From assembly GCF_921293095.1 (NCBI RefSeq), contig NC_060258.1:7330607-7394606 (forward strand): a stretch of 64,000 nucleotides of DNA, written 5' to 3'. Positions 30,501 to 64,000 of this stretch are shown piece after piece. Below the pieces are notes generated by a model. It was given only the letters and a program-made list of their open reading frames with translations. It was not told where the DNA came from and searched no databases. Source of the DNA: Ischnura elegans. Its lineage: Eukaryota > Arthropoda > Insecta > Odonata > Coenagrionidae. Position 1 is the first letter of the stretch; every line of letters begins with the position of its first letter. Position numbers and translations under genes: made by a program.

Positions 30501-33500
30501 CCAATGTGGATGCCTTCCATCTGCTCAAAGAACTTTCTATCTTTCATGAAGTATGTTGTTATCCTCTCAAGAAGAAATAGTTCTACTATATTGATTTGGA
30601 AGGGTATACTCGGGAGCTGAAGCATGTCTCTAAAGGGAAATCCTTTGTAGAGATAGGTACAGAGTTTCAAAGCTCATCATGATGTCACTTTTGTTGACCA
30701 TGCAGATGAATTGTTGGTCCATCACTCAATGCCCTGAGGACTATGGCAGAGCTAGCCATTGAAACGTTGACTCTGGCTGAACAGCTCACCTGATGACAAG
30801 GCCGTAGCCAGAAAATATTTTCGGGGGGTTTATGGAATAGTAGACAAAAATAAAATATACATATTTATTATAAACCCTTAAAGGAAAATATAAAAATATT
30901 ATTATAAAATTGAATTTAGCCTCCTAGTTTTTTTTGCAGCGACCAAATGAATTAACTCCTTGGTATCGTTGTCAATTCTGGGGTCCCTCAGGAGGTCCAT
31001 AAGTCATTCACCTTTCTTCTAATTCACAGCACTATTATTTCACACGCTGCACTACAACTACGCACACTGCATCTACAAATTTGCTTAGATAATTATTGAC
31101 TTGAGTCGCATTGGACTACTAGATATCCCTGCGCAGCTATACAAAGCCAAAGTCGGTTAGGCAGTTCATAGATCAGTATTGTTAGTTTTTTGACCTCCGA
31201 GGGTCACTATGGGGGTCAAAGGTCATAGAGTTAAACGTCGGACCTTCATGACAACCAACGTGTCAAACCATAGGTTTTGAAGGGTGCCAAAGTCGGTTAG
31301 GCAGTTCATAGATCCGTGTTGTTGGTTTTTTGACCTCCGAGGGTCACAATGGGGGTCAAAGGTCATAGAGTTGAACTTCGGGCCATCATGACAGCCAACG
31401 TGTCAAACCATAGGTTTTGAAGGGTGCCAAAGTCGGTTAGGCAGTTCATAGATCCGTGTTGTTGGTTTTTTGGCCTCCGAGGGTCACAATGGGGATCAAA
31501 GGTCATAGAGTTAAACTTTGGGCCATCATGACAACCAAAAAGTGGAACCATGGGTTTTAAAGGGTGCCCAAGTCAGTTTTGCAGTTCATAGTTCCGCATA
31601 ACAGATTTTTTTGATCTCCGAAATTCATAATGGGGATCAAAGGTCATAAAGAAAATATGCAATGCGCTTACCCCCCTTCCTTCCAAAAATTTTCCATTTC
31701 CTCGCAGTGCTTTCCGGCAGGCTTCCCATGCCATCTTAGCTTCATGCCGAAGTTGATCATTTATTTCTCTAAACATCATTTTGATTTGCAGCTCAAAGTG
31801 GAAGACAAAACTCCGTTTAAAAAGATATTGGCTATGTCCGAAACCATAAGGTAAAACGTAAAAGAAATGGATAAATCCAGCTTTTATTTTGATTGTATCA
31901 TGCGTTGTGATAAATATTTAACCATTAAAGAGAAATATCATTAAACGACAAAATTAATAGGATTATAAACTGAAATGTGAACATGTAGTATACATTGGGC
32001 TAGTCAACCATCCAATTGCAGAGATGGTTTTGATTGCCATGCTTTTCTTCTCGAAGCTGCAACATTACACTTTCTAGGGCTTCAAGTTTAGAATATTTAA
32101 ATTTTGTTATATCGCACACCTGGAATTGTCCAGTTCACGCTGCGCGGACAATAGTGCTCAGCGGCAAAAGCATCTTAATGGAAAGGCCAAGACATAGCAA
32201 TGAGACTGTTGGGTGTTATACCCAACCGATTTGCAAGTTTGAATGTGAAGTGAGGTCCTGATAAATTTGCAGACAGTAATGTTTGCAGGACGAGGGTCAG
32301 TCAGAAGGTTGCGGTCTTTACAGTCAAACTGGGACTTTTTCTTAACTACTTATTTAACATATCTTTAGGACTTTCATGGGAAAAACTCGCAACCCTTAAC
32401 TTGAGCGATACCAATGGAGGTCTAATACTTAAATGAAAAGCGGCATGAATGGGTTTTGCTATTTGCTTGTTGATCTTTAAAACCAATGGGATTTCAGCGT
32501 AGTTATAAAGAAAGTCCTATGTGGCGTTAGACCTCCATAAGACCTTCTTTGCAGAGAGATGTAGTGGAAAAATGTGGACACAGAGTCGGGAAAAAGGATG
32601 TCTAGGGAAATAAATAATCAAGAACGGCGTAAAACTAAGAGGGTAAGGGAGGCTTGTCGGAAAAGGCAGTGGATATGTGTACACCACTCACTTGGTCACC
32701 CTTCAAAACCTTTAGTTGGGGAAATTAGTTTTCCTATTATTTCAAAACATACATATATGACCTTTGACCCCCCCTTATGACCCTCGATGGTAAAAAAATC
32801 GACAATATGCAAACTGCTACGAACTGCCACACTGACTTGGGCACCCTTTAAAACCTATGGTTCCACGCTTTGGCTGTCATTATGGCCCGACGTTTAGCTC
32901 TATGACTTTTGGCCCCCATTGTGACCCCCGGAGGTCAAAAAACCAACAACACGGATCTATGAACTGCCTAACCGACTTTGGCACCCTTCAAAACCTATGG
33001 TTTGACACGTTGGCTGTCATGATGGCCCGAAGTTCATTCTATGACCTTTGACCCCTATTGTGACCCTCGGAGGGCAAAAAACCAACAATACGGATCTATG
33101 AACTGCCTATCCGACTTTGGCACCCTTCAAAACCTATGGTTTGACACGTTAGTTGCCACGATGGCCTGACGTTTAACACTATGACCTTTGACCCCCATTG
33201 TGACCCTCGTAGGTCAATTAGTGAATAATACGGGTATTTGGACAATACCAATGACTTGGGCACCCTATAAAACCCATAGATCGACACCTTTGTCGGTATG
33301 CTATTCTTTTTGCCACCCTTATGACCTTGACGGTGACCTTACTGGGTCAACGGTTGAATTTTCGTAAATAAAATTGTTATTTTCGGGTTTTTCGGGTCCG
33401 AAACCATAAGAATTGACACCTTGGTCAATGAAATTCAGACATTTTTCTATCTCGATTTTTTTAACATTGAAACCCCATAAGGCAAATTCAAATTTTTGGT

Positions 33501-39500: not shown

Positions 39501-41302
39501 GCTAGATATGTGATAATTATTGATGCTTGCCTTTCCTTTTCGGACATAATTGAACCTATATTGAAATTGCCAAAAAGAGTGACATCTTTTTCATGTGTTA
39601 AGCAGCCAGCAAAAATATTAATTAAAGGGAATAGGTTTCTTTCTATCAAATGGTTTTTAAAAATTGGGTCTGTGAGTCCTAGATTTCCTGTCTGACTCAG
39701 AAAATTGAAGTACGATTTTCTTTTCTAGGGATATCAACTCCTGACAAAGTGCTGATGGAAACAACATCAACTTCATGTGTGCTGAAGGAAAGAAATGTAA
39801 CAATCGATCTTAACCATGACTTTATTGCTCCAGCAGTATCATTGACAATCAGGCAATCCAACACTGTAACATCCCATGTAGGTAAAGGAATGAATGTGAT
39901 GGATAAATATTTGGAAGAGGGCAGTGCTCATCATGCTGAGAAGATAATGTCTGACTCAATTCCTGATGATGGACACAGTTATAAGAAACACATTCCAGCA
40001 TCTAATAACGGTGGAAATGGAGCAACAATGAATGTTGTTGGGTGTAGAGGTGATGCACCAAATATCAGAGATAGCCTTAGGATAATCAGAATAGGTGAAT
40101 GCAAAAGAAGTGGCATTGAGGCAGTCATGGGAGACAAAAAAGAGATAAGTAATTGCTTCATCGAAAATCCTAGTAATGGTAAAAATTCAAACAAAAAGTT
40201 ATATTATTGCTCCCACTGCAGATATGGATTCAACACCAAAAGTGATCTGATCAAACACATGGAAATTCATTTCGGTGCCAGCAATTTGGATCTTGATGCA
40301 GAATCATCTATGGGAAAAAATGAGTGTTTAATAATCCCTGCATCAAGTGATGTGAGTAATAATTCTTGTGAGTCATCCACCTCCGAGACATTGAAAGGAT
40401 TGAAAAGGAAAAGACAAGTGCCGATGCATAAAGTAAATACTCCTGTTGTAAAATCCTCATGTGGAATGAAAGAGAAGAAAACTCTGGGAGGAGTGAGAAG
40501 CATTGATGGAGATGGGCAACCACACGCACAGAATGAGTCCACTTCTTGTGCTGGAAACCTCCAAAATGATGCAAGAGGATGCACAAAAGGAGGGCCTTTC
40601 AGTTGCAGCGTGTGCGCAGAGTCTTTCACTCTGAGAAGCAGTCTTAACAGCCACATGCGTGCACACGCAGGAAGAAAACGTTATCCGTGTACAATATGCA
40701 GCAAGTCTTTCACGAAGACTTCTGGTGTCACTGAACACATGCGCATTCACGCAAAAGAGAAGCCTTTCTTGTGCAAGACGTGTTTTAAATCTTTCACCAA
40801 GAGTTATCAACTAACTAACCACATGCGTACGCACTCAGGGGAGAAACCCTTTGCATGCAGCGATTGCGCAAAGTCCTTCACCAGAAGAGACAACCTGATC
40901 CGCCACTTGCGCATTCACTCAGGCACGAGACCATTTACATGCAACTTGTGCTGCAAGTCTTTCACTTCGAGTTCTTCTCTCACCAATCACATGCTAAAAC
41001 ACTCAGGGGAGAGACCTTTTTTGTGTAATAATTGCCAAAAGTCTTTCACTAGAAAATACAGCCTCATGCTCCACTTGCGTATGCATGCAAGAGAGAAATC
41101 TTTTTCATGTAATCACTGTGCAGAGTCTTTCTCTTGTAAGAGCAGCCTCAATCAACACGTGCGGACACACAAAGTAAAAAGACCTTATTACTGCAAAATT
41201 TGTTCCAAAAACTTTGCTGAAAGTAGTACCCTAAATGCACACATGCATACACATGCAGAAGTGAAGCCTTTTTCATTAAATGATTGTGCAGTCTTTCTCT
41301 AG
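15398..41302 (+). CDS. ZAD-type C2H2 zinc-finger transcription factor (gene-level entry, eight exons)
   Basis: Exon chain 15398-15565, 15693-15830, 20206-20373, 21153-21275, 22348-22479, 24945-25070, 36324-36396 and 39729-41302. Every exon is open, has GT and AG borders, and joins its neighbours in matching phase (all phase 0 except the last, phase 1), for about 833 codons. Order: ZAD (codons 1-102), acidic Ser/Asp/Glu-rich linkers (about 103-310), then the last exon with nine C2H2 fingers. An extra open exon at 35206-35325 would add 40 codons if used. Proteins of this type are nuclear DNA-binding regulators that dimerise through the ZAD; the target is unknown. The reading frame ends at a frameshift in finger 10, so the protein is shorter than its ancestor. 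The model rests on splice signals, phase and exon similarity to the minus-strand paralogue; transcript data are not available to me. Confidence 0.85.
15693..15830 (+). CDS. exon 2: second half of ZAD
   Basis: Acceptor CACTCAG, then ATT GCT GTG GGA; ends AGG before GTGAGT. The 46 codons include GDGLPATMCPLCLKKLTEF, with the second Cys-x2-Cys, and FSVFKKTCLESNAFLRK, the terminal helix. Both Cys pairs are intact, so the ZAD should fold. Confidence 0.88.
16148..16336 (+). CDS. candidate extra exon (weak)
   Basis: 63 open codons run from an acceptor-like TTGTAG to a donor CTG|GTAAGC, phase 0 at both ends, so it could be spliced between exons 2 and 3. The C-terminal part (VATNEDILSSGKTECVLNND) is acidic like the other linkers, but the first half is hydrophobic and unlike them. 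An alternative acceptor (TTTTTCAG at about 16266-16273) would give a phase that does not fit exon 2. No paralogous exon was found in the minus-strand gene. Confidence 0.25.
16337..17213. other. intron with a small tandem duplication
   Basis: Intron 2 of the plus-strand ZAD gene. A block of about 48 bp (AATTTTAAATATAACCTTAG type) occurs twice in tandem at roughly 17013-17060 and 17077-17125. Nothing else recognised. Confidence 0.5.
17214..18105. mobile_element. inverted-repeat element (MITE-like) in intron 2
   Basis: Nucleotides about 17215-17450 are repeated in inverse orientation at about 17862-18085 with many differences. Paired landmarks are GTATCTCCAAACCGATC against GATCAGTTTGGAGATAC, and AATGGCCACCGCG against GGTGGCCGTT. 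The arms enclose about 400 bp of AT-rich sequence. No coding capacity. Exact ends and target duplication could not be fixed, so the superfamily is open. Confidence 0.5.
18106..20205. other. intron sequence, nothing recognised
   Basis: AT-rich remainder of intron 2. Open frames up to 103 codons overlap on both strands and show no motif. Confidence 0.5.
20206..20373 (+). CDS. exon 3: acidic linker with IPVPD motif
   Basis: Acceptor CTGCAG and donor TTG|GTAAGT; 56 codons, phase 0. The peptide contains GAVDDNLGPSVETTDCI and EIYIPVPDCLLP. Its copy in the minus-strand gene (6223-6390) has exactly the same length. A third, dead copy lies downstream in this same gene at 33830-33997. Conservation between paralogues suggests the segment matters, but it has no named domain. 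Confidence 0.8.
20374..21152. other. intron 3
   Basis: Its last part (CCAGCTGGAGTGGTCTCACT near 21020, then AT-rich DNA) is similar to the sequence before the duplicated exon at 35206, showing that the duplication included intronic DNA. Confidence 0.55.
21153..21275 (+). CDS. exon 4: acidic linker
   Basis: Acceptor CATATAG, 41 codons in phase 0, donor CTG|GTGAGT. A second AG nine bases downstream would bring a stop into phase, so the first AG is chosen. The peptide (VVKEENEGHLSEENN, then ISSDVSDPLTTDDL) is rich in Glu, Asp and Ser. It is closely similar to the exon at 35206-35325. Confidence 0.78.
22348..22479 (+). CDS. exon 5: acidic linker
   Basis: Acceptor TTCCAATAG and donor CAG|GTAATG; 44 open codons, phase 0 at both ends. 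The peptide (YKCSPVKEDQISDGEEGYV and more) is acidic and Ser-rich with no known domain. Chosen for splice signals, frame and composition matching its neighbours; no paralogous copy in the window. Confidence 0.68.
22480..23154. other. intron 5, first part
   Basis: AT-rich, pyrimidine-rich stretches; nothing recognised before the Tigger-like element. Confidence 0.5.
23155..24117. mobile_element. Tigger/pogo-like non-autonomous element
   Basis: The 963-bp element is flanked by TA on both sides. Its ends are CACGCGGTCCCCGACTTTC and, inverted, CAGGCGGTCCTCGACTTTCG. TA duplications with CAGGCGGTCC(C/T)CGACTT ends are characteristic of Tigger-type (pogo) elements of the Tc1/mariner superfamily. The motif GTACGAAAGTCGA is repeated several times just inside both ends. 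No transposase frame is visible; a 79-codon open frame at 23482-23721 has no recognisable motif. It sits in intron 5 of the ZAD gene. Confidence 0.75.
24118..24944. other. intron 5, second part
   Basis: AT-rich intron sequence up to the acceptor TTTTGTTGCAG; nothing else seen. Confidence 0.5.
24945..25070 (+). CDS. exon 6: linker
   Basis: Acceptor TTGCAG and donor CAG|GTATGT; 42 codons, phase 0. The peptide (PNTLTASQGEKVETQSRGD, then a Leu-rich acidic end) has no known domain. Evidence is splice signals, frame and base composition: G+C is clearly higher than in the flanking intron. Confidence 0.7.
25071..26162. other. intron 6, first part
   Basis: No gene or clear element end recognised. 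Confidence 0.5.
26163..26843. mobile_element. MITE-like inverted repeat with ~130-bp arms
   Basis: Arm 26163-26294 recurs inverted at 26709-26843 with high similarity; the ends read TTACTTACAA and TTGTAAGTAA. The 414-bp middle is AT-rich apart from a twice-repeated ACCAGTGACGTGC block at about 26656-26697. No coding capacity. Target duplication uncertain. Confidence 0.6.
26844..28866. other. intron 6, middle part
   Basis: AT-rich intron DNA. A 98-codon minus-strand open frame at 28352-28648 shows no motif. Near 28720-28760 a short phrase (TTGTGTAGCAGCTT type) is repeated. Confidence 0.5.
28867..29775. mobile_element. PIF/Harbinger-like MITE (TAA target duplication)
   Basis: The 909-bp element has ends AGCCCGTATGACACTTGCC and the exact complement at the right, continuing through a pair of TTTATTGGCCAAT blocks for over 30 bp. 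TAA flanks it at 28864-28866 and 29776-29778. Three-base TWA duplications are characteristic of PIF/Harbinger; the assignment is inferred from that. Internal variants of the CCAATATTGG palindrome recur near both ends. No coding region. Confidence 0.7.
29964..30720 (-). pseudogene. Penelope-like retroelement, reverse-transcriptase fragment
   Basis: Minus-strand frames broken by stops carry, in order, ITTYFMKDRKFFEQMEGIHI, NDTFIVWPHG, NGCLPFPEILI, KPTHINIYLNGRSHHHP and RQNGYSKRDI. This is the order and wording of Penelope-like reverse transcriptases (TYFxxxGxxYEQxxG, YVDDTFxxW, NGxLPFLD, KPTHTxxYLNxxSxHHP, RQNGY). The YVDD catalytic motif is degraded to MND and the GIY-YIG domain is not attached, so this copy is dead. 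It lies antisense in intron 6 of the ZAD gene. Confidence 0.8.
31150..31650 (+). repeat. 140-bp tandem repeats, left arm
   Basis: Four copies start near 31153, 31293, 31433 and 31573 (marker AGTCGGTTAGGCAGTTCATA; the last is diverged). Each has GAGGGTCACAATGGGGGTCA followed by AAGGTCATAGAG, which includes a 13-bp GGGTCA-A-AGGTCA direct repeat. Confidence 0.85.
32690..33300 (-). repeat. 140-bp tandem repeats, right arm (inverted)
   Basis: The same repeat as at 31150-31650 in the opposite orientation. Marker TGAACTGCCTAACCGACTTT and variants recur at a spacing of about 140 bp (near 32823, 32960, 33101, and a diverged copy near 33240). The 13-bp direct-repeat site survives at 32758-32770, 33042-33054 and 33182-33194 and is degraded near 32903. 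Confidence 0.85.
33830..33997 (+). pseudogene. dead duplicate of exon 3
   Basis: The sequence aligns over the full 168 nt with exon 3 (20206-20373), including AADDNAESSAGTKECI and EICIPV. It carries two in-frame stops (TGA after the Cys-Ile pair and TAG nine codons later), and the donor has become GCAAGG. The acceptor CTGCATAG is intact. It should not be included in a productive transcript. Confidence 0.85.
34390..34790 (-). pseudogene. Penelope-like retroelement, GIY-YIG endonuclease fragment
   Basis: Minus strand. The frame reads NYHVTHECGDIYIGQTGRTI, then ETKISEHKHCIRYAEGIN, after which a one-base shift leads into VANHCITYNHAIL. GDIYIGQTGR with a following EHxxxI block is the GIY-YIG nuclease at the C-terminus of Penelope-like elements. 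The usual conserved zinc-linker residues are partly changed and the frame is broken. It lies upstream, on the minus strand, of the reverse-transcriptase fragment, so the two are not one intact element. Confidence 0.75.
35206..35325 (+). CDS. open duplicate of exon 4, possibly an alternative exon
   Basis: Acceptor ATCTTTTAG and donor TTG|GTAAGT; 40 codons, phase 0 at both ends. The peptide (NVKGENEELLSGG, then GGLSSETSDPLSIDGL) parallels exon 4 (VVKEENEGHLSEE and ISSDVSDPLTTDDL). It remains open and splice-competent although the exon 3 copy before it is dead. It would join exon 6 to exon 7 without a frame change. Whether it is used cannot be told from DNA. Confidence 0.55.
35395..35587 (+). 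pseudogene. LINE reverse-transcriptase fragment
   Basis: A short frame reads APQGSVIGLLLFITFMFDL, then LEISSKIHFFDDGDVIYDG. It corresponds to the (V)PQGSVLGPLLFLIYINDL and LFADDCVIY motifs of jockey/I-type LINE reverse transcriptases, with the catalytic ADD changed to DDG. Only this core piece remains. Confidence 0.65.
36324..36396 (+). CDS. exon 7: short linker
   Basis: Acceptor CTTTTAG and donor ACAG|GTGAGT; 24 codons plus one base (phase 1). The phase 1 end fits exactly the phase of the acceptor of the zinc-finger exon, which needs one base to complete a Gly codon. Peptide PMFTKDEKLIDNWKMTKDS and more; no domain. Confidence 0.7.
36397..37021. other. intron 7, first part
   Basis: AT-rich sequence with no recognised gene or element. 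Confidence 0.5.
37022..37074. repeat. perfect 53-bp palindrome
   Basis: Arms of 26 bp (37022-37047 and 37049-37074) are exact reverse complements around a single G at 37048; the arm starts AAGATATCTTGGAACTCAG. It would extrude as a hairpin with virtually no loop. It lies in intron 7 of the ZAD gene. Confidence 0.95.
37075..38140. other. intron 7, middle part
   Basis: No gene or element end recognised. Several chance open frames overlap on both strands. Confidence 0.45.
38141..38330. mobile_element. small MITE-like element rich in ACTTTAG/CTAAAGT motifs
   Basis: The short segment contains about eight copies of CTTTAG, CTAAAG or TAAAGTG in both orientations, and outer ends GGTGCAGCC and (inverted) GGGTGCGATTCATAGAC. 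The layout suggests a small inverted-repeat element; no target duplication was established. Confidence 0.45.
39062..39600. repeat. intronic tandem duplication, ~287-bp period
   Basis: Two diverged copies start near 39062 (AACATTATTTTCTCCTTAAC) and 39349 (AACATAATTCTCTCTTAAAG). Both continue through a TTTTGTCTTTT block, a GATATGTGATAATT-like block and a CCTTTTTGGGCA/CCTTTTCGGACA block. No coding content. Confidence 0.7.
39729..41302 (+). CDS. exon 8: nine C2H2 zinc fingers, C-terminus truncated by frameshift
   Basis: Acceptor TTTTCTAG, then 524 codons continuing the phase 1 junction (Gly-Ile-Ser-Thr-Pro). A spacer of about 150 codons leads to a lone finger (YYCSHCRYGFNTKSDLIKHM, first Cys at 40208). 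A Ser/Lys-rich spacer follows, then eight fingers with strict 84-nt spacing from 40598 to about 41260 (first Cys of the array at 40604). The linkers are of the H-x-G-E-K-P type (HSGEKPFAC, HSGERPFLC), typical of DNA-reading fingers. Finger 10 has lost its first Cys (FSLNDC) and then a 2-nt deletion shifts the frame to a TAG. Fingers 2-9 retain their Cys2His2 ligands. Confidence 0.92.
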
Positions 41303-50884: not shown

Positions 50885-51566
50885 AAGGCTAAAAAAAGGT
50901 ATCTCTCGTTGGATTTTGATCAGAATGCTATCAAAACGTACGAAATATCCTAATAATTATTTAAGTAGAGTTTCATTGTGAATGAGTTTCAAGTTTCAAG
51001 AAAATATTTCATGATTTGTGGTTGTCATGCTACCAAGAAAGAATTCAAAATCAGCCAACCGGTGTTAAATATTATTTCTCATCGGATTTTGGTCAGATTA
51101 CTTTTAAAACGTTTGAAATGACTCAGTAGAGTGTTATTGTGACAGAATTTCAACTTCGGGAGAAATCGTAGGATTTTTGGTTGCGTTCCACCCTTTCAAA
51201 ATCAGAAAGATTTTGTTCGTATGCGTGATTAAATGTTCTTTAAGAATTGAAAATAGTTATGTAGATTTTCTGTGCGACTGATTTACAACTTTTAAAAATA
51301 TTGTAGTAATTGTTGATGGCGTACACCTAGAAAAAAATTCAACGGGAACATTCTACCTTAGGAACTGTCTTATCAGGCGATTTCGACCAGAAAGTTTAGT
51401 AAAGAACGCGTCGAGAGTATATTCGAATAACCCTAACCACTTCTTTCTCGATAAATGATTGTTTTGCGTATTAAGTTCTTATTATCATCACCTGCAGTTA
51501 TGGAAAGTCACCACAGGGGTTCCGCGTTTGAAAAGACCACGTTAATTATCAGACGTTTTGAACGGG
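50885..51566 (+). repeat. array unit 0 (partial, last monomers and tail)
   Basis: The array starts within a unit, at the border of the monomer beginning GGTATCTCTCGTTGG. Two monomers and the unit tail (ACGCGTCGAGAGTATATTCG) follow. This marks the left array border. Confidence 0.8.
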
Positions 51567-51638
51567 GGGGCGGTAGACTAGTGGTTAGCGTGTTGGATTC
51601 CCACGCGGGGGTCCCGGGTTCGATTCCCGGCCGCGGCC
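51567..51638 (+). repeat. tRNA-like pol III module, copy 1
   Basis: TAGACTAGTGG fits an A box with one mismatch and GGTTCGATTCC is an exact B box, with a perfect T stem (CCGGG/CCCGG). The anticodon arm is GCGTG/CACGC around a nine-base loop TTGGATTCC, and the acceptor stem pairs only in part. It is therefore a tRNA-derived sequence, as found in SINE heads, rather than a tRNA gene. Confidence 0.8.
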
Positions 51639-51729
51639 GTCGGAAAAAATGCGAAAAATTAGGGCGTTAAGATTGGGTTCGTTAGAGTCAGGTCGATCAG
51701 AACGTATGTCGGTTAGGTAGTCTCAGGTG

Positions 51730-51829
51730 CCTCCAGTGTTCAGTGGCCGGGTGCGAACCCGGGTCCCTGAGTTGACAACTTTTCCCCTCGGGGACCCGGG
51801 TTCTCATCCCGGTCACTGAACACTGGAGG
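51730..51829. repeat. hairpin module of the array unit
   Basis: Arms of about 38 bp (51730-51767 and 51791-51829; CCTCCAGTGTTCAGTGGCCG and its complement, with CCCGGGT blocks) enclose about 23 nt. Present in every unit. Read on the minus strand the left arm holds GGGTTCGCACCC, which resembles a B box. It may be derived from inverted tRNA-like DNA. Confidence 0.75.
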
Positions 51830-52003
51830 AGAGGAGGCTGGAGGCATTTTGTTGCCTTTTTTTATCGCAGGCTCTCGGTGGCAAAGAACGTACGTATCGA
51901 TGAGCGACGATGTTGCCACCACACGGCATTCGAGGGAGTTACAAAGATCGCGGAAGTGACAAGTGAGAGTGATTTTACGGGAATTTTCCTTTTCCTTTCC
52001 CTA

Positions 52004-52008
52004 CGGCG
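52004..52008. repeat. left target duplication CGGCG
   Basis: CGGCG is present once at the equivalent empty site of the other units (CCTACGGCGCTTGATAT) and twice around the transposon (52004-52008 and 55232-55236). Confidence 0.9.
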
Positions 52009-53000
52009 CACAGTGGTCTGAAATCGGAAAAAGCTGGACAAAAGTCCAAAATTGCGTTTTTTGAGGTAGAGACTTGAAACTTGGCGTATATACTCACAAA
52101 TAGTTGGTGATCACGGTATAATAAGTTATTTCTCCTATATCTAATCCGTTACTGAGATACAGGGGATCAAACATGACCAAATTTCCAAAAACACGCCCGA
52201 TCTCGTTTTTCTCCGAAAAACTTCGGAGTTAAACTGCTGGTAGAGTTTTTGAAGGATTTTAATGCAGTAAAAAACGTTATATTCCAAAAATATTGTACTT
52301 TATCTACATTTTCCATTATTTTTCAACTTTTTGGTTAGTATTGGTGCAGTATAATGTCGCAAAATGGCGGACCCTTTTTTCTGGCCAATTTTGACATAAA
52401 GTAGACAATATCTTTAGTTTAAGAAAAAACATATCTCCAATTTTTCCTCAGAGTATTTAATAGACATCATTTAAGAGAATGGAGCAAAAATCTATGAAAA
52501 AAGTTTGCCCCTTCATTAATGAACGCGATTTTTCGATCGCGCTGCACGTCCCGGCTCCGCGACACGGGGGCCTAGAGACTCGGGGACACCGTTGGATATT
52601 TCACTTTGTTTGGAACTTAATTATTTAAAATCGTAATTTTAAGCACACTATACAGTCTCTATTGACCCAAAATACTTAACTGAAGACATTACTAGAATAT
52701 TGGATCGATATACTTGGTTACTGAACGCCGTAACTCTGGTAAACATGCTTTGGTTTCGAAACCTAACTGAATCATTACACTTTTTCTTTCACTACGGAAG
52801 CACATTAGGAACACCCTTTGGGTAGGATTTAAGTTTTCTCGCGAAGCTTGCCATGCACAGTTACCAGGAAAGGCTGCAGCCCGGATTCTTTCACTAATTC
52901 TTTCCCTTTTCACCCACGCCGAGGAGGAGCGTGCGAAAAGGGACATTTTATGATACCGCGCGGCCGTTGAGGGAATTTCCGAAGGGGTTTTTCCAAAGGG
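52009..53000 (+). repeat. Transib left terminal inverted repeat
   Basis: Starts with heptamer CACAGTG (52009-52015), a 22-nt spacer, then ACAAAAGTC (52038-52046), close to the V(D)J nonamer ACAAAAACC. The arm also contains a chance open frame (52692-53030, minus) that is mirrored in the right arm. Confidence 0.9.
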
Positions 53001-53500
53001 TTTTTTCCGCTCCCTTTCCTTTTTAACCATGCAATATTACCACGAGGAAGTTTTAGTAATGATGGGATAATGAAATGGTTAAATAGATTTTTTTACCTTA
53101 TTTTTTAATAACATGGCGTATTATATATAAAGATGGAAATTATGAAATTGCATTTTTACTCTTCCATTGCATGTTTAACTATTGAACATCCCATCCAATG
53201 TAAATTATCTAGAGAATATACCTCAATTAATACTAAATCAAAAGACAGACCAATAAAAATATTTTTCAAATTTGATGAAGAAAAAGTAGGATATACACTC
53301 CTGAAGGGAATAATTTGAAATCATAATAAACATGTGTACAATGAGATAAGCAAAACATGCTAACTATAAATCTTACGAATGAAATAAAATTAATTTTAAA
53401 CACCTAGGAATAAGAAAATGTACAATTTTGATGTTGCCTAATACCACCCTGGGTGTTAGTAATTATGATTATTGTTTGAAACTTCAATCAATTCAATACT

Positions 53501-53941
53501 TCAGTCCTCCGAAGAATCTTGGTCATCACCACTATCTGACTCTTCTCCTTCACTTTCATCTAAATCTAGTAGTTCCCTCAATTCTTTAGGTATTTTCCTT
53601 GATATTTTCTGTTTTACTGTTACGGTTGATGAAATAAATGGATCCGACGTAATCAACAGTCTTTGAATGAGATCCTGATTAGTGGCCACTCTTGAGTGCT
53701 TTCTAGTGAACCTTTGACGAAATTTTCGGGAGTCCTTATTTCTAGCTTCCAATGCCTCTTCGGATAGTTGCCCTAGTGGGAGAATTGCCTCCTTCGCAAT
53801 TTCTCCTCCATGCATCAGCACTTTATGGACCGTGGTTGGCATATAATACCATGGGTACAGGTCCACGTACAGTTCCGCTGTTCTCCGGCAGTAATCCGAG
53901 AATACTGCATGATTGAGACTTATTCCACTAGATATTGCCAA
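53501..53941 (-). pseudogene. Transib transposase, C-terminal fragment
   Basis: 146 open codons on the minus strand. The order is AELYVDLYPWYYMPTTVHKV (residues 22-41), LPLGQLSEEALEARNKD (54-70), FRQRFTRKHSR and LLITSDPFISS, then an acidic Ser/Asp/Glu tail. This matches the C-terminal part of Transib transposases. The SEExxEARNKDxRxFR segment corresponds to the region of RAG1 that holds its third catalytic acidic residue, followed by a basic FRR-type stretch. The N-terminal DNA-binding region and the two catalytic aspartates are absent from the window, so no active enzyme can be made from this copy. Confidence 0.8.
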
Positions 53942-54240
53942 ACGGAATAATAAAACTTCGGAATGACGTATAAAAATAAGTCATGATAGAGAAAAATAAA
54001 AAAGACTCAACTGGAAAAATGGCTCTACTCAGAAGAACAACAAGGGAAACCGAGGCCCGGACACGGAAGTAAAAAGCGAAACTAATTCAACGATGTACAC
54101 GCAAATTCACTGGACACACAGAAGATTATACCACTTCACTAGGTCACTGTAGGCACAACACTCTTTCACCAAGTTCAAAATAGATCTGCAATCTACAAGA
54201 TGCATTGTAAGATGCATTTCTGAAGGGGAAAGAAAAATAC

Positions 54241-55231
54241 CCCTTTGGAAAAACCCCTTCGGAAATTCCCTCAACGGCCGCGCGGTATCATAAAATGTCC
54301 CTTTTCGCACGCTCCTCCTCGGCGTGGGTGAAAAGGGAAAGAATTAGTGAAAGAATCCGGGCTGCAGCCTTTCCTGGTAACTGTGCATGGCAAGCTTCGC
54401 GAGAAAACTTAAATCCTACCCAAAGGGTGTTCCTAATGTGCTTCCGTAGTGAAAGAAAAAGTGTAATGATTCAGTTAGGTTTCGAAACCAAAGCATGTTT
54501 ACCAGAGTTACGGCGTTCAGTAACCAAGTATATCGATCCAATATTCTAGTAATGTCTTCAGTTAAGTATTTTGGGTCAATAGAGACTGTATAGTGTGCTT
54601 AAAATTACGATTTTAAATAATTAAGTTCCAAACAAAGTGAAATATCCAACGGTGTCCCCGAGTCTCTAGGCCCCCGTGTCGCGGAGCCGGGACGTGCAGC
54701 GCGATCGAAAAATCGCGTTCATTAATGAAGGGGCAAACTTTTTTCATAGATTTTTGCTCCATTCTCTTAAATGATGTCTATTAAATACTCTGAGGAAAAA
54801 TTGGAGATATGTTTTTTCTTAAACTAAAGATATTGTCTACTTTATGTCAAAATTGGCCAGAAAAAAGGGTCCGCCATTTTGCGACATTATACTGCACCAA
54901 TACTAACCAAAAAGTTGAAAAATAATGGAAAATGTAGATAAAGTACAATATTTTTGGAATATAACGTTTTTTACTGCATTAAAATCCTTCAAAAACTCTA
55001 CCAGCAGTTTAACTCCGACGTTTTTCGGAGAAAAACGAGATCGGGCGTGTTTTTGGAAATTTGGTCATGTTTGTCCCCTGTATCTCAGTAACGGATTAGA
55101 TATAGGAGAAATAACTTATTATACCGTGATCACCAACTATTTGTGAGTATATACGCCCAGTTTCAAGTCTCTACCTCAAAAAACGCATTTTTTGACTTTT
55201 GTCCAGCTTTTTCCGATTTCAGACCACTGTG
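54241..55231 (-). repeat. Transib right terminal inverted repeat
   Basis: Inverse copy of 52009-53000, ending CCACTGTG at 55231, with the same heptamer, spacer length and ACAAAAGTC nonamer-like sequence when read inward. Confidence 0.9.
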
Positions 55232-55236
55232 CGGCG
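55232..55236. repeat. right target duplication CGGCG
   Basis: Second copy of the 5-bp target; followed by CTTGATATTCG, as in the uninterrupted long units. Confidence 0.9.
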
Positions 55237-55409
55237 CTTGATATTCGTAGGTCTCATTCATAGCGTGATCGTACTGGTACCGCAGTCCCACCTAGTTGTA
55301 GCATCATCTTTTTTCGCGATCCTAAATTCAGTCCTTCCAGGTCCGAAACTGGACTTTGAAATTTACAATAAATACTTAATCAACCATCTTGAGTTAAAAA
55401 AGTATTTGT

Positions 55410-56450
55410 CGTCGGATTTTGGTCAAAATACTTTTAAACCGTTCGGAATATTTTAATTATTATTAAAGTAGAGTCTTTGTGTGATTTAATTTCATGTTTC
55501 GAAAATATTTCATGATTTTTGTTCGCAATACACCCAGGACACACATTGAAAAAGATCCATCTTAAGTAATGTAAATATTTCTCGTCGGATTTTAATCAGA
55601 ATACTTTGAAAACGTTTGCAATATCCTAATAATTATTCAAGTAGGGTTTCAGTGCGATTAATTTTCAATTTTCGAAAATATTTTATGATTTTTGTTTTCC
55701 ATACACCCAGGACACCCATTCAAAAAGAACCATCTTGAGTTTAAAAAGTATTTATCGTCGGATTTTGGTCACAATTCTTTTAAAACGTTTGAAATATTAC
55801 AATTATTATTAAGGTTGAGTTTAAGTGTGATTCAGGTTCAAGTTTCGAAAATATTTCATGATTTGTGGTTGCCATACACCCAGGAAACACATTCAAAAGG
55901 AACCATCTTGAGTTAAAGAAGTATTCTCTCCTCGGTTTTCGGTCAGAATACTTTTTAAACATTTGCAGTATCCTAGTTATTATGTAAGAGGAGTTTCAAT
56001 GTGATTAAATTTCAAGTTTCGAAAATATTTCATGATTTGTGTTTGCCATACACCCAGGACACACATTCAAAAAGAACCATCTTGCTAAAAAAAGGTATCT
56101 CTCGTTGGATTTTGATCAGAATGCTTTCAAAACGTACGAAATATCCTAATAATTATTTAAGTAGAGTTTCATTGTGAATGAGTTTCAAGTTTCAAGAAAA
56201 TATTTCATGATTTGTGGTTGTCATGCACCCAAGAAAGAATTCAAAATCAGCCAACCGGTGTTAAATATTATTTCTCATCGGATTTTGGTCAGATTACTTT
56301 TAAAACGTTTGAAATGACTCAGTAGAGTGTTATTGTGACAGAATTTTAACTTCGGGAGATATCGTAGGATTTTTGGTTGCATTCCACCCAGGAAACACGT
56401 TTCAAAATCAGAAAGATTTTGTTCGTATGCGTGATTAAATGTTCTTTAAG
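55410..56450 (+). repeat. block of 173-bp monomers (six copies)
   Basis: Monomers begin at 55410, 55583, 55756, 55930, 56103 and 56276, each with C(G/A)T(C/T)GGATTTTGGTCA or a variant. They share TTTTAAAACGTTTGAAATAT, TTTCGAAAATATTTCATGAT, and CACCCAGGACACACATTC. Spacing is 173-174 bp, but sequence identity between neighbours is modest, whereas the same monomer in different units is nearly identical. Confidence 0.88.
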
Positions 56451-56772
56451 AATTGAAAATAGTTATGTAGATTTTCTGTGCGACTGATTTACAACTTTTA
56501 AAAATATTGTAGTAATTGTTGATGGCGTACACCTAGAAAAAATTTCAACGGGAACATTCTACCTTAGGAACTGTCTTATCAGGCGATTTCGACCAGAAAG
56601 TTTTGTAAAGAACGCGTCGAGAGTATATTCGAATAACCCTAACCACTTCTTTCTCGATAAATGATTGTTTTGCGTATTAAGTTCTTATTATCATCACCTG
56701 CAGTTATGGAAAGTCACCACAGGGGTTCCGCGTTTGAAAAGACCACGTTAATTATCAGACGTTTTGAACGGG

Positions 56773-56844
56773 GGGGCGGTAGACTAGTGGTTAGCGTGTT
56801 GGATTCCCACGCGGGGGTCCCGGGTTCGATTCCCGGCCGCGGCC
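56773..56844 (+). repeat. tRNA-like pol III module, copy 2
   Basis: Same A box and exact B box as copy 1; the downstream 50 bp is deleted. Confidence 0.8.
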
Positions 56845-58698
56845 CGGTCGATCAGAACGTATGTCGGTTGGGTAGTCTCAGGTGCCTCCAGTGTTCAGTG
56901 GCCGGGTGCGAACCCGGGTCCCTGAGTTGACACCTTTTCCCCTCGGGGACCCGGGTTCTCATCCCGGCCACTGAACACTGGAGGAGAGGAGGCTGGAGGC
57001 ATTTTGTTGCATTTTTTTACGCAGGCTCTCGGTGGCAAAGAACGTACGTATCGATGAGCGACGATGTTGCCACCACACGGCATTCGAGGGAGTTACAAAG
57101 ATCGCGGAAGTGACAAGTGAGAGTGATTTTACGGGAATTTTCCTTTTCCTTTCCCTACGGCGCTTGATATTCGTAGGTCTCATTCATAGCGTGATCGTAC
57201 TGGTACCGCAGTTCCACCTAGTTGTAGCATCATCTTTTTTCGCGATCCTAAATTCAGTCCTTCCAGGTCCGAAACTGGACTTTGAAATTTACAATAAATA
57301 CTTAATCAACCATCTTGAGTTAAAGAAGTATTTGTCGTCGGATTTTGGTCAAAATACTTTTAAACCGTTCGGAATATTTTAATTATTATTAAAGTAGAGT
57401 CTTTGTGTGATTTAATTTCATGTTTCGAAAATATTTCATGATTTTTGTTCGCAATACACCCAGGACACACATTGAAAAAGATCCATCTTAAGTAATGTAA
57501 ATATTTCTCGTCGGATTTTAATCAGAATACTTTGAAAACGTTTGCAATATCCTAATAATTATTCAAGTAGGGTTTCAGTGCGATTAATTTTCAATTTTCG
57601 AAAATATTATATGATTTTTTTTTTCCATACACCCAGGACACCCATTCAAAAAGAACCATCTTGAGTTTAAAAAGTATTTATCGTCGGATTTTGGTCACAA
57701 TTCTTTTAAAACATTTGAAATATTACATCTATTATTAAGGTTGAGTTTAAGTGTGATTCAGGTTCAAGTTTCGAAAATATTTCATGATTTGTGGTTGCCA
57801 TACACCCAGGAAACACATTCAAAAGGAACCATCTTGAGTTAAAGAAGTATTCTCTCCTCGGTTTTCGGTCAGAATACTTTTTAAACATTTGCAGTATCCT
57901 AGTTATTATGTAAGAGGAGTTTCAATGTGATTAAATTTCAAGTTTCGAAAATATTTCATGATTTGTGTTTGCCATACACCCAGGACACACATTCAAAAAG
58001 AACCATCTTGCTAAAAAAAGGTATCTCTCGTTGGATTTTGATCAGAATGCTTTCAAAACGTACGAAATATCCTAATTATTATTTAAGTAGAGTTTCATTG
58101 TGAATGAGTTTCAAGTTTCAAGAAAATATTTCATGATTTGTGGTTGTCATGCACCCAAGAAAGAATTCAAAATCAGCCAACCGGTGTTAAATATTATTTC
58201 TCATCGGATTTTGGTCAGATTACTTTTAAAACGTTTGAAATGACTCAGTAGAGTGTTATTGTGACAGAATTTCAACATCGGGAGATATCGTAGGATTTTT
58301 GGTTGCATTCCACCCAGGAAACACGTTTCAAAATCAGAAAGATTTTGTTCGTATGCGTGATTAAATGTTCTTTAAGAATTGAAAATAGTTATGTAGATTT
58401 TCTGTGCGACTGATTTACAACTTTTAAAAATATTGTAGTAATTGTTGATGGCGTACACCTAGAAAAAATTTCAACGGGAACATTCTACCTTAGGAACTGT
58501 CTTATCAGGCGATTTCGACCAGAAAGTTTTGTAAAGAACGCGTCGAGAGTATATTCGAATAACCCTAACCACTTCTTTCTCGATAAATGATTGTTTTGCG
58601 TATTAAGTTCTTATTATCATCACCTGCAGTTATGGAAAGTCACCACAGGGGTTCCGCGTTTGAAAAGACCACGTTAATTATCAGACGTTTTGAACAGG
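56773..58698 (+). repeat. array unit 2 (long type, 1926 bp)
   Basis: Long-type unit. It lacks about 50 bp directly after the tRNA-like module (GCGGCC joins straight to CGGTCGATCAG), which accounts for its shortness relative to 1974-1978 bp. Confidence 0.85.
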
Positions 58699-58770
58699 GG
58701 GGCGGTAGACTAGTGGTTAGCGTGTTGGATTCCCACGCGGGGGTCCCGGGTTCGATTCCCGGCCGCGGCC
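58699..58770 (+). repeat. tRNA-like pol III module, copy 3
   Basis: Same boxes; one G-to-A change in the upstream G run (GAACAGGGGGGCGG). Confidence 0.8.
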
Positions 58771-60245
58771 GTCGGAAAAAATGCGAAAAATTAGGGCGTT
58801 AAGATTGGGTTCGTTAGAGTCAGGTCGATCAGAACGTATGTCGGTTGGGTAATCTCAGGTGTCTCCAGTGTTCAGTGGCCGGGTGCGAACCCGGGTCCCT
58901 GAGTTGACACCTTTTCCCCTCGGGGACCCGGGTTCTCATCCCGGCCACTAAACACTGGAGGAGAGGAGGCTGGAGGCATTTTGTTGCATTTTTTTACGCA
59001 GGCTCTCGGTGGCAAAGAACGTACGTATCGATGAGCGACGATGTTGCCACCACACGGCATTCGAGGGAGTTACAAAGATCGCGGAAGTGACAAGTGAGAG
59101 TGATTTTACGGGAATTTTCCCTTTCCTTTCCCTACGGCGCTTGATATTATTAATATTTTATGATTTTTGTTTTCCATACACCCAGGACACCCATTCAAAA
59201 AGAACCATCTTGAGTTTAAAAAGTATTTATCGTCGGATTTTGGTCACAATTCTTTTAAAACGTTTGAAATATTACAATTATTATTAAGGTTGAGTTTAAG
59301 TGTGATTCAGGTTCAAGTTTCGAAAATATTTCATGATTTGTGGTTGCCATAAACCCAGGAAACACATTCAAAAGGAACCATCTTGAGTTAAAGAAGTATT
59401 CTCTCCTCGGTTTTCGGTCAGAATACTTTTAAAACATTTGCAGTATCCTAGTTATTATGTAAGAGGAGTTTCAATGTGATTAAATTTCAAGTTTCGAAAA
59501 TTTTTCATGATTTGTGTTTGCCATACACTCAGGACACACATTCAAAAAGAACCATCTTGCTAAAAAAAGGTATCTCTCGTTGGATTTTGATCAGAATGCT
59601 TTCAAAACGTACGAAATATCCTAATAATTATTTAAGTAGAGTTTCATTGTGAATGAGTTTCAAGTTTCAAGAAAATATTTCATGATTTTTGGTTGTCATG
59701 CACCCAAGAAAGAATTCAAAATCAGCCAACCGGTGTTAAATATTATTTCTCATCGGATTTTGGTCAGATTACTTTTAAAACGTTTGAAATGACTCAGTAG
59801 AGTGTTATTGTGACAGAATTTCAACTTCGGGAGATATCGTAGGATTTTTGGTTGCATTCCACCCAGGAAACACGTTTCAAAATCAGAAAGATTTTGTTCG
59901 TATGCGTGATTAAATGTTCTTTAATAATTGAAAATAGTTATTAAGATTTTCTGTGCGACTGATTTACAACTTTTAAAAATATTGTAGTAATTGTTGATGG
60001 CGTACACCTAGAAAAAATTTCAACGGGAACATTCTACCTTAGGAACTGTCTTATCAGCGATTTCGACCAGAAAGTTTTGTAAAGAACGCGTCGAGAGTAT
60101 ATTCGAATAACCCTAACCACTTCTTTCTCGATAAATGATTGTTTTGCGTATTAAGTTCTTATTATCATCACCTGCAGTTATGGAAAGTCACCACAGGGGT
60201 TCCGCGTTTGAAAAGACCACGTTAATTATCAGACGTTTTGAACGG
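58699..60245 (+). repeat. array unit 3 (short type, 1547 bp)
   Basis: After CGGCGCTTGATAT the sequence jumps to TATTAATATTTTATGATT, deleting the first monomer and most of the second. It keeps four complete monomers. It shares length and junction with unit 5. Confidence 0.85.
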
Positions 60246-60317
60246 GGGGCGGTAGACTAGTGGTTAGCGTGTTGGATTCCCACGCGGGGCTCCCGGGTTC
60301 GATTCCCGGCCGCGGCC
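60246..60317 (+). repeat. tRNA-like pol III module, copy 4
   Basis: Same boxes; G-to-C change in the variable region (GGGGCTCCCGGG). Confidence 0.8.
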
Positions 60318-62219
60318 GTCGGAAAAAGTGCGAAAAATTAGGGCGTTAAGATTGGGTTCGTTAGAGTCAGGTCGATCAGAACGTATGTCGGTTGGGTAGT
60401 CTCAGGTACCTCCAGTGTTCAGTGGCCGGGTGCGACCCGGGTCCCTGAGTTGACACCTTTTCCCCTCGGGGACCCGGGTTCTCATCCCGGCCACTGAACA
60501 CTGGAGGAGAGGAGGCTGGAGGCATTTTGTTGCATTTTTTTACGCAGGCTCTCGGTGGCAAAGAACGTACGTATCGATGAGCGACGATGTTGCCACCACA
60601 CGGCATTCGAGGGAGTTACAAAGATCGCGGAAGTGACAAGTGAGAGTGATTTTACGGGAATTTTCCTTTTCCTTTCCCTACGGCGCTTGATATACGTAGG
60701 TCTCATTCATAGCGTGATCGTACTGGTACCGCAGTCCCACCCAGTTGTAGCATCCTCCTTTTTCGCGATCCTAAATTCAGTCCTTCCAGGTCCGAAACTG
60801 GACTTTGAAATTTACAATAAATACTTAATCAACCATCTTGAGTTAAAAAGTATTTCTCGTCGGATTTTGGTCAAAATACTTTTAAACCGTTCGAAATATT
60901 TTAACTATCATTAAGTTAGAGTTTTTTTGTGATGTAATTTCATGTTTCGAAAATATTTCATGATTTTTGTTCGCAATACACCCAGGACACACATTGAAAA
61001 ATATCCATCTTAAGTAATGTAAATATTTCTCGTCGAATTTTAATCAGAATACTTTGAAAACGCTTGCAATATCCTAATAATTATTCAAGTAGGGTTTCAG
61101 TGCGATTAATTTTCAATTTTCGAAAATATTATATGATTTTTGTTTTCCATACACCCAGGACACCCATTCAAAAAGAACCATCTTGAGTTTAAAAAGTATT
61201 TATCGTCGGATTTTGGTCACAATTCTTTTAAAACGTTTGAAATATTACAATTATTATTAAGGTTGAGTTTAAGTGTGATTCAGGTTCAAGTTTCGAAAAT
61301 ATTTCATGATTTGTGGTTGCCATACACCCAGGACACACATTCAAAAGGAACCATCTTGAGTTAAAGAAGTATTCTCTCCTCGGTTTTCGATCAGAATACT
61401 TTTAAAACATTTGCAGTATCCTAGTTATTATGTAAGAGGAGTTTCAATGTGATTAAATTTCAAGTTTCGAAAATATTTCAAGATTTGTTTTGCCATACAC
61501 CCAGGACACACATTCAAAAAGAACCATCTTGCTAAAAAAAGGTATCTCTCGTTGGATTTTGATCAGAATGCTTTCAAAACGTACGAAATATCCTAAAAAT
61601 TATTTAAGTAGAGTTTCATTGTGAATGAGTTTCAAGTTTCAAGAAAATATTTCATGATTTGTGGTTGTCATGCACCCAAGAAAGAATTCAAAATCAGCCA
61701 ACCGGTGTTAAATATTATTTCTCATCGGATTTTGGTCAGATTACTTTTAAAACGTTTGAAATGACTCAGTAGAGTGTTATTGTGAAAGAATTTCAACTTC
61801 GGGAGATATCGTAGGATTTTTGGTTGCATTCCACCCAGGAAACACGTTTCAAAATCAGAAAGATTTTGTTCGTATGCGTGATTAAATGTTCTTTAAGAAT
61901 TGAAAATAGTTATGTAGATTTTCTCTGCGACTGATTTACAACTTTTAAAAATATTGTAGTAATTGTTGATGGCGTACACCTAGAAAAAATTTCAACGGGA
62001 ACATTCTACCTTAGGAACTGTCTTATCAGGCGATTTCGACCAGAAAGTTTTGTAAAGAACGCGTCGAGAGTATATTCGAATAACCCTAACCACTTCTTTC
62101 TCGATAAATGATTGTTTTGCGTATTAAGTTCTTATTATCATCACCTGCAGTTATGGAAAGTCACCACAGGGGTTCCGCGTTTGAAAAGACCACGTTAATT
62201 ATCAGACGTTTTGAACGGG
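60246..62219 (+). repeat. array unit 4 (long type, 1974 bp)
   Basis: Long-type unit carrying the variants GCGGGGCTCCCGGG and GTGCGACCCGGG, which also occur in unit 6. Confidence 0.85.
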
Positions 62220-62291
62220 GGGGCGGTAGACTAGTGGTTAGCGTGTTGGATTCCCACGCGGGTGTCCCGGGTTCGATTCCCGGCCGCGGCC
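62220..62291 (+). repeat. tRNA-like pol III module, copy 5
   Basis: Same boxes; GGGTGTCCCGGG variant in the variable region. Confidence 0.8.
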
Positions 62292-63766
62292 GTCGGAAAA
62301 AATGCGAAAAATTAGGGCGTTAAGATTGGGTTCGTTAGAGTCAGGTCGATCAGAACGTATGTCGGTTGGGTAGTATCAGGTGCCTCCAGTGTTCAGTGGC
62401 CGGGTGCGAACCCGGGTCCCTGAGTTGACACCTTTTCCCCTCGGGGACCCGGGTTCTCATCCCGGCCACTGAACACTGGAGGAGAGGAGGCTGGAGGCAT
62501 TTTGTTGCATTTTTTTACGCAGGCTCTCGGTGGCAAAGAACGTACGTATCGATGAGCGACGATGTTGCCACCACACGGCATTCGAGGGAGTTACAAAGAT
62601 CGCGGAAGTGACAAGTGAGAGTGATTTTACGGGAATTTTCCTTTTCCTTTCCCTACGGCGCTTGATATTATTAATATTTTATAATTTTTGTTTTCCATAC
62701 ACCCAGGACACCCATTCAAAAAGAACCATCTTGAGTTTAAAAAGTATTTATCGTCGGATTTTGGTCACAATTCTTTCAAAACGTTTGAAATATTACAATT
62801 ATTATTAAGGTTGAGTTTAAGTGTGATTCAGGTTCAAGTTTCGAAAATATTTCATGATTTGTGGTTGCCATAAACCCAGGAAACACATTCAAAAGGAACC
62901 ATCTTGAGTTAAAGAAGTATTCTCTCCTCGGTTTTCGGTCAGAATACTTTTAAAACATTTGCAGTATCCTAGTTATTGTGTAAGAGGAGTTTCAATGTGA
63001 TTAAATTTCAAGTTTCGAAAATTTTTCATGATTTGTGTTTGCCATACACCCAGGACACACATTCAAAAAGAACCATCTTGCTAAAAAAAGGTATCTCTCG
63101 TTGGATTTTGATCAGAATGCTTTCAAAACGTACGAAATATCCTAAAAATTATTCAAGTAGAGTTTCATTGTGAATGAGTTTCAAGTTTCAAGAAAATATT
63201 TCATGATTTTTGGTTGTCATGCACCCAAGAAAGAATTCAAAATCAGCCAACCGGTGTTAAATATTATTTCTCATCGGATTTTGGTCAGATTACTTTTAAA
63301 ACGTTTGAAATGACTCAGTAGAGTGTTATTGTGACAGAATTTCAACTTCGGGAGATATCGTAGGATTTTTGGTTGCATTCCACCCAGGAAACACGTTTCA
63401 AAATCAGAAAGATTTTGTTCGTATGCGTGATTAAATGTTCTTTAATAATTGAAAATAGTTATTAATATTTTCTGTGCGACTGATTTACAACTTTTAAAGA
63501 TATTGTAGTAATTGTTGATGGCGTACACCTAGAAAAAATTTCAACGGGAACATTCTACCTTAGGAACTGTCTTATCAGCGATTTCGACCAGAAAGTTTTG
63601 TAAAGAACGCGTCGAGAGTATATTCGAATAACCCTAACCACTTCTTTCTCGATAAATGATTGTTTTGCGTATTAAGTTCTTATTATCATCACCTGCAGTT
63701 ATGGAAAGTCACCACAGGGGTTCCGCGTTTGAAAAGACCACGTTAATTATCAGACGTTTTGAACGG
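62220..63766 (+). repeat. array unit 5 (short type, 1547 bp)
   Basis: Identical in length and deletion junction to unit 3. Near its end it shares with unit 3 the variants TTTAATAATTGAAAATAG and TTATCAGCGATTTCG, which are absent from long units. Confidence 0.85.
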
Positions 63767-64000
63767 GGGGCGGTAGACTAGTGGTTAGCGTGTTGGATTC
63801 CCACGCGGGGCTCCCGGGTTCGATTCCCGGCCGCGGCCGTCGGAAAAAGTGCGAAAAATTAGGGCGTTAAGATTGGGTTCGTTAGCGTCAGGTCGATCAG
63901 AACGTATGTCGGTTGGGTAGTCTCAGGTACCTCCAGTGTTCAGTGGCCGGGTGCGACCCGGGTCCCTGAGTTGACACCTTTTCCCCTCGGGGACCCGGGT
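63767..64000 (+). repeat. array unit 6 (partial at window edge)
   Basis: Begins with a sixth tRNA-like module (63767-63838) of the unit 4 type and runs into the hairpin module at the window end. The order long-short-long-short predicts a long unit. Confidence 0.8.

Follow-up and report, generated by a model that had tools for sequence, protein, structure and literature searches.

The window, a stretch of 64,000 nucleotides of Ischnura elegans DNA, carries at positions 52009-55231 a Transib element that lies inside one unit of a local tandem array. The following features were delimited (coordinates are those of the window):

52009-55231, no strand assigned: non-autonomous Transib element of 3,223 bp, recognised by its ends, its arms, a gene-bearing copy and empty sites
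52004-52008, no strand assigned: left copy of the 5-bp target-site duplication CGGCG, from the sequence and the empty site
55232-55236, no strand assigned: right copy of the 5-bp target-site duplication CGGCG, from the sequence and the empty site
52009-53018, plus strand: left inverted arm (identity between the two arms, 98.9%)
54222-55231, minus strand: right inverted arm, 98.9% identical to the left arm
52009-52043, plus strand: left 35-bp conserved end, from CACAGTG to CAAAA (heptamer 52009-52015, spacer 52016-52037, nonamer-like block 52038-52046)
55197-55231, minus strand: right 35-bp conserved end (heptamer 55225-55231, spacer 55203-55224, nonamer-like block 55194-55202)
53501-53956, minus strand: last exon of a Transib transposase, matching 6pqn residues 351-487 (E 1.1e-35), with the motif of the third catalytic Glu
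53938-53940, no strand assigned: approximate junction of an internal deletion, where about 2.2 kb present in the gene-bearing C1 copy is missing
57043-57282, plus strand: paralogous empty target site, 99.6% identical to the joined flanks, ungapped
60566-60805, plus strand: second paralogous empty target site, 98.3% identical to the joined flanks, ungapped

The tandem array spans 50888-64000 and consists of kilobase units with sub-repeats of about 173 bp. Elsewhere in the window we noted by eye a 953-amino-acid open frame resembling a LINE polymerase (10546-13407, plus strand) and a 539-amino-acid open frame with C2H2 zinc-finger-like repeats (39683-41302, plus strand). A ~140-bp repeat also forms two arrays separated by about 1.1 kb (31146-31648 and 32756-33274), whose orientations, judged by eye, are opposite.

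To delimit the insertion, both flanks of the element were joined with one CGGCG and compared within the window. The insertion site is one unit of the array, and two other units keep the empty site. Because both empty sites align without gaps, the element boundaries and the CGGCG duplication, which the earlier note had proposed, are demonstrated within the window itself. The same match speaks against the 3,223-bp structure being a recombination product without related mobile copies. Among 18 elements of the same family (family A, window element included) with both ends in one locus, 15 are flanked by identical 5-bp duplications, so that this length, which the earlier note had put up for checking, holds up in other copies. 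Two more (L010 and L016) agree as far as they can be read, the locus edge cutting their flanks, and one (L036) has unequal flanks, which counts against the explanation that we prefer below. All 15 exact pairs have the form C-R-N-Y-G, a pattern derived from the very data on which it was scored and from duplications of family A only; it agrees with the GC-biased 5-bp targets described for RAG and Transib in passages of PMC8289069 and PMC11844651.

The coding remnant identifies the superfamily. The window exon matches the C-terminus of the HzTransib transposase (6pqn), which, together with the 5-bp duplications, bears out the assignment to Transib made in the earlier note. A homologous transposase, a 5-bp duplication and termini that start with CAC and contain a heptamer-like block, three marks of the Transib superfamily, are present. 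CENP-T, a match below the cut-off in a Pfam scan of the window exon, was dropped. The Pfam RAG1 profile PF12940 found no match in the genome, but none in control genomes either, so that this negative carries no weight. Searching the genome (1.72 Gb in 110 contigs) yielded at least 150 matches to the last exon, with 51 to 100% identity among the matches listed, and at least 40 to the outer 152 bp of the element, identical in 40 of the 40 listed. COX1-like nuclear fragments gave 43 matches in this genome and look arthropod.

One of the related copies carries upstream exons. This gene-bearing copy (C1:108595166-108600607, about 5.44 kb) has the same ~1-kb arms as the window element; its two arms share 99.4% identity across 1011 bp, and its 5-bp flanks match, reading CGACG on the plus strand. 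Its exon pieces, together with those from another copy on contig C95, match 6pqn residues 8-142, 144-213, 209-281 and 293-340. Apart from lacking about 2.2 kb of upstream exons, the window element equals the 5.44-kb structure, and the two sides of the junction near position 53939 share one or two bases at most. It keeps only the last transposase exon and is therefore non-autonomous, a point absent from the earlier note. Another derivative, of 3,293 bp, makes up 9 of the 18 paired copies.

We then turned to the ends, which the earlier note had likened to V(D)J recombination signals. CACAGTG stands at both ends of the element (52009-52015, plus strand; 55225-55231, minus strand), followed in each case after a spacer of 22 nt by ACAAAAGTC (52038-52046, plus strand; 55194-55202, minus strand), which shares 7 of 9 bases with the nonamer ACAAAAACC of the recombination signal sequence (RSS), all as the note had described. 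The two ends agree because each arm, about 1 kb long, nearly duplicates the other (98.9% identity across 1010 bp). By itself the heptamer is no rarity: CACAGTG occurs 7 times without mismatch in the window, where 5.1 occurrences would be expected. A nonamer match of at least 7 of 9 arises by chance in 0.33-0.45% of cases at one fixed spacer and in 1.6-2.3% over five spacers. The ends stand out from chance through their placement on either side of an inverted repeat, together with the duplication and the ungapped empty sites.

Comparison between families gave a sharper view of what is conserved. Eighteen diverged Transib loci, taken from exon matches and 54 to 83% identical to the window exon in their last exon, sort into seven further families (B to H, eight with A), which are sampled thinly and whose two ends were compared only through neighbour pairs. 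The 3' end was found in 16 of the 18, and all 16 begin with CACAGTGG; a search for the terminus in L041 and L046 found none. With one end per family, invariant positions across the eight families number 7 of 7 in the heptamer, 16 of 22 in the spacer, 5 of 9 in the nonamer-like block and 4 of 32 at positions 39-70. Families G and H have the first 35 bp in common with the others and, as judged by eye, little beyond. The CAAAA core of the nonamer-like block is invariant, the last three nonamer bases vary, and the match to ACAAAAACC at spacer 22 amounts to 5 to 7 of 9, short of an RSS nonamer. The heptamer is that of the RSS, CACAGTG; the 12/23 asymmetric pair of the RSS is not there, the spacer being 22 nt at both ends and conserved.

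Genome-wide, we found about 3,600 pattern matches to the Transib end (reversed-pattern controls, 0). With the other positions held fixed, retention was 3411 of 3596 ends (94.9%) for the final four bases of the heptamer, 3411 of 3619 (94.3%) for four bases of the spacer and 3411 of 3572 (95.5%) for the AAAA within the nonamer-like block; as many of these ends are recent, this test is weaker than the comparison between families. Ends with a spacer one base shorter number 38. Among the first 100 ends listed, 97 have CACAGTG and 29 convergent neighbour pairs lie within 8 kb, with identical 35-mers in 27 of the 29. We also observed that near-identical Transib pairs, mostly about 7 kb apart, recur near contig ends (pairs at C1:2.24M, C2:0.28M, C3:138.8M, C4:134.3M, C5:1.4M, C6:125.4M, C7:0.32M and 116.67M, C8:116.4M, C19:119.5M and 121.5M), as though a single block had been copied among the ends of chromosomes. 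At C1:2442321-2450177 the ends of one Transib type are nested within those of another, as if inserted.

These data bear on whether the ends are RSS-like in the strict sense, that is, with heptamer and nonamer selected and the spacer mattering only in its length. The invariant heptamer in eight of eight families, the invariant CAAAA core and the constant spacer length of 22 would suit such ends, and some Transibs are described in parts of PMC8355894 as having 12/23 asymmetry with near-RSS heptamers and nonamers. However, the spacer is invariant at a larger share of its positions than the nonamer, the three blocks are retained almost equally across the genome, and both ends carry the same spacer, which makes this reading very improbable. 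The conserved unit is instead one continuous 35-bp end of fixed length, the same on both sides, in which a bipartite heptamer/nonamer layout is absent. Given the 12/23 asymmetry in other Transibs, this layout need not apply to the whole superfamily. Of the signal proposed in the earlier note, the heptamer stands, as a genuine feature common to Transib end and RSS, and the CACAGTG-type start is found in other copies as well; the nonamer match, conserved among families in its core and variable in the remainder, amounts for the most part to an A-rich block. Earlier work on Transib has described both heptamers identical to that of the RSS (passages of PMC6941560) and symmetric spacers of 20-22 nt (families of Kapitonov and Jurka 2005, as described in parts of PMC8355894).

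We are therefore highly confident that the window holds a non-autonomous Transib of derived structure, with continuous ends of about 35 bp, inserted with duplication of CGGCG and moved in trans. The 3,223-bp Transib inserted into one unit of the tandem array, duplicating CGGCG, and corresponds, by the comparison, to a transposase-bearing element of about 5.44 kb with the same arms, less about 2.2 kb of upstream exons; abortive gap repair is one conceivable route to this loss. Its ends would be read by the transposase as one continuous unit of about 35 bp starting with CACAGTG. This transposase must act on the window copy in trans and may come from its own family or from a relative with nearly the same 35-bp end. 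By analogy with HzTransib, cleavage is predicted at the outer edge of CAC, leaving hairpins on the flanks; passages of PMC6941560 describe HzTransib as nicking the outer edge of its end with hairpins left on the flank, like RAG. That the heptamer matches the RSS accords with the known relation between Transib and RAG1.

The source of this enzyme raises a second issue. In the gene-bearing C1 copy, the exon that encodes the second catalytic residue is interrupted by an in-frame stop, and family A has an unexpected residue at that position; an active source within family A is thus only putative. Asp, Asp and Glu occupy 6pqn chain positions 109, 208 and 419, which by manual count lie at a constant offset of 17 from D126, D225 and E436. 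Family A has the first Asp and the last Glu (EARNKD motif), but Asn (TMINGK) at position 208; the window element itself is without this exon. We take RAG1 D708 to be the equivalent of HzTransib D225, going by the order of the D-D-E residues and the RAG1 sequence. Passages of PMC6941560 give this order and name D126, D225 and E436 as the catalytic residues of HzTransib, and RAG1 D708N is reported in a part of PMC12216023 to be catalytically dead.

Asn is widespread at this position. An exon search provided 30 loci, of which 29 reach the residue (L063 ends before it and was left uncounted), and all 29, among them family A, family C and a 75% type, have Asn; at least 10 of them lie in one duplicated block and are not independent. 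Twelve further loci comprise seven with Asn (families D, E, F and H, the F-like L094, L097 and L100) and five with Asp (family G, L095, L096, L098 and L099), so that families A, C, D, E, F and H are of the Asn type. The loci are:

Asn: L014, L028, L038, L059-L062, L064-L089, L091-L094, L097, L100
Asp: L090, L095, L096, L098, L099

Across the genome, LTMINGK occurs at 293 sites versus 46 for LTMIDGK (reversed controls, 2 and 0), counts that miss the variants TMVNGK, TVINGK, TMKNGK, SMVDGK and TDIDGK seen at loci. A second exon with Asp was sought beside the Asn exons in the fetched loci and none was found, and a search of a limited literature collection by words, not sequences, found no mention of an Asp-to-Asn change at the second catalytic position. 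Many of the most diverged copies (about 30 of the matches listed, 44-50% identity, for example C1:12499142 and C4:1459132) have a shared in-frame TGA in this exon, among them the Asn copy L097 and the Asp copy L096.

In the last-exon tree, families A to F form one group (support 80/80), outside which G and H branch in an order that the tree does not resolve; a single Asp-to-Asn change is thus possible. This fits poorly with an Asp motif at C4:123226407, which adjoins a family-B-like last exon (79%, two stops) and is at odds with a neat division into Asn and Asp types; this Asp may have arisen late, in a copy already dead. L064 (Asn, 87% to A) is family-B-like by distance only. Between families, dN/dS of the Asn exon is 0.09-0.20 in five pairs whose dS reaches at most 1.4; a sixth pair, near saturation, gives 0.07. 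For the last exon it is 0.08-0.16 in the 7 of 28 family pairs with measurable dS, one of which (C-G) joins an Asn family to an Asp family. These low values indicate that Asn-type proteins have been under constraint. Between near-identical copies of the 75%-type family, dN/dS is 0.4-2.0, as expected from neutral decay.

How, then, do Asn-type elements move? Their transposases could be dead and the families mobilised in trans by Asp-type Transibs, for instance G, whose 35-bp ends are almost identical to theirs. The loss of catalysis in RAG1 D708N points this way, the 35-bp ends of G and F differ at one position, and the window element shows that enzyme-less copies can move. A dead protein, however, should not stay as constrained as both exons are, and we consider this account a serious contender with somewhat less than an even chance. 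Asp might also be restored later, by A-to-I RNA editing (AAT/AAC to GAT/GAC) or by deamidation of Asn-Gly. Both Asn codons observed, AAT and AAC, become Asp codons by a first-position change, Gly comes next in 29 of 29 exon-search loci and in 12 of 12 further loci, and Asn-Gly deamidates fast. Yet Gly also follows Asp in the Asp-type loci and is no special feature of those with Asn, and at 13 loci the pairing energy at the Asn codon was no stronger than in neighbouring windows, so no editing hairpin was seen; restoration is accordingly improbable. We lean slightly towards a Transib lineage that swapped its second catalytic Asp for Asn, yet is under purifying selection and supplies most of the motif sites: either its active site works with Asn, or its proteins are kept for another job. 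Such a non-cutting job could, for example, be that of partners or restrainers of Asp-type Transibs with shared ends.

The likeness of Transib ends to the RSS is a textbook link between transposons and adaptive immunity, RAG1 being the enzyme that cuts antibody genes and Transib the family related to it. This genome, in which one end pattern has about 3,600 matches and the Transib families number at least eight, puts the likeness to the test, and the signal here appears as a continuous 35-bp unit. Were this also true of the ancestor, the RSS with its free spacer would be a later layout rather than an inherited one. The Asn lineage, in turn, offers a natural test of what the RAG1/Transib metal site requires.

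Among known systems, HzTransib of Helicoverpa zea (6pqn, 6pqr, 6pqu, 6pqx, 6pqy, 6pr5) is homologous in its transposase over nearly the whole chain and has a 5-bp duplication and a heptamer-like end, as here; long terminal inverted repeats are reported for it in passages of PMC1852546. It differs in being 3,518 bp long with Asp at 225 and is credited with little or no nonamer similarity (PMC1852546 and PMC8289069, in part); the gene-bearing copy here has 5.44 kb, several exons and Asn at this position. The Transib families of Kapitonov and Jurka 2005, with spacers of 20-22 nt as described in parts of PMC8355894, likewise have symmetric ends, the spacer length of 22 and heptamer and nonamer-like blocks, and family A may already be a named Transib family. 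Autonomous Transibs usually occur in one or a few copies according to a part of PMC4411706; two exon searches here gave at least 150 genome matches each, although most of these copies may be dead. The ends of ProtoRAG and RAGL elements also start with CAC and make 5-bp duplications (passages of PMC8289069 and PMC7204232), but in ProtoRAG the start reads CACTATG, the spacers measure 27 and 31 and the inner block differs, and RAGL elements also carry a RAG2-like gene. With the V(D)J 23-RSS, finally, the window element has in common the heptamer CACAGTG and 7 of 9 nonamer bases at spacer 22, and it differs in a conserved spacer, varying last nonamer bases and a symmetric pair of ends.
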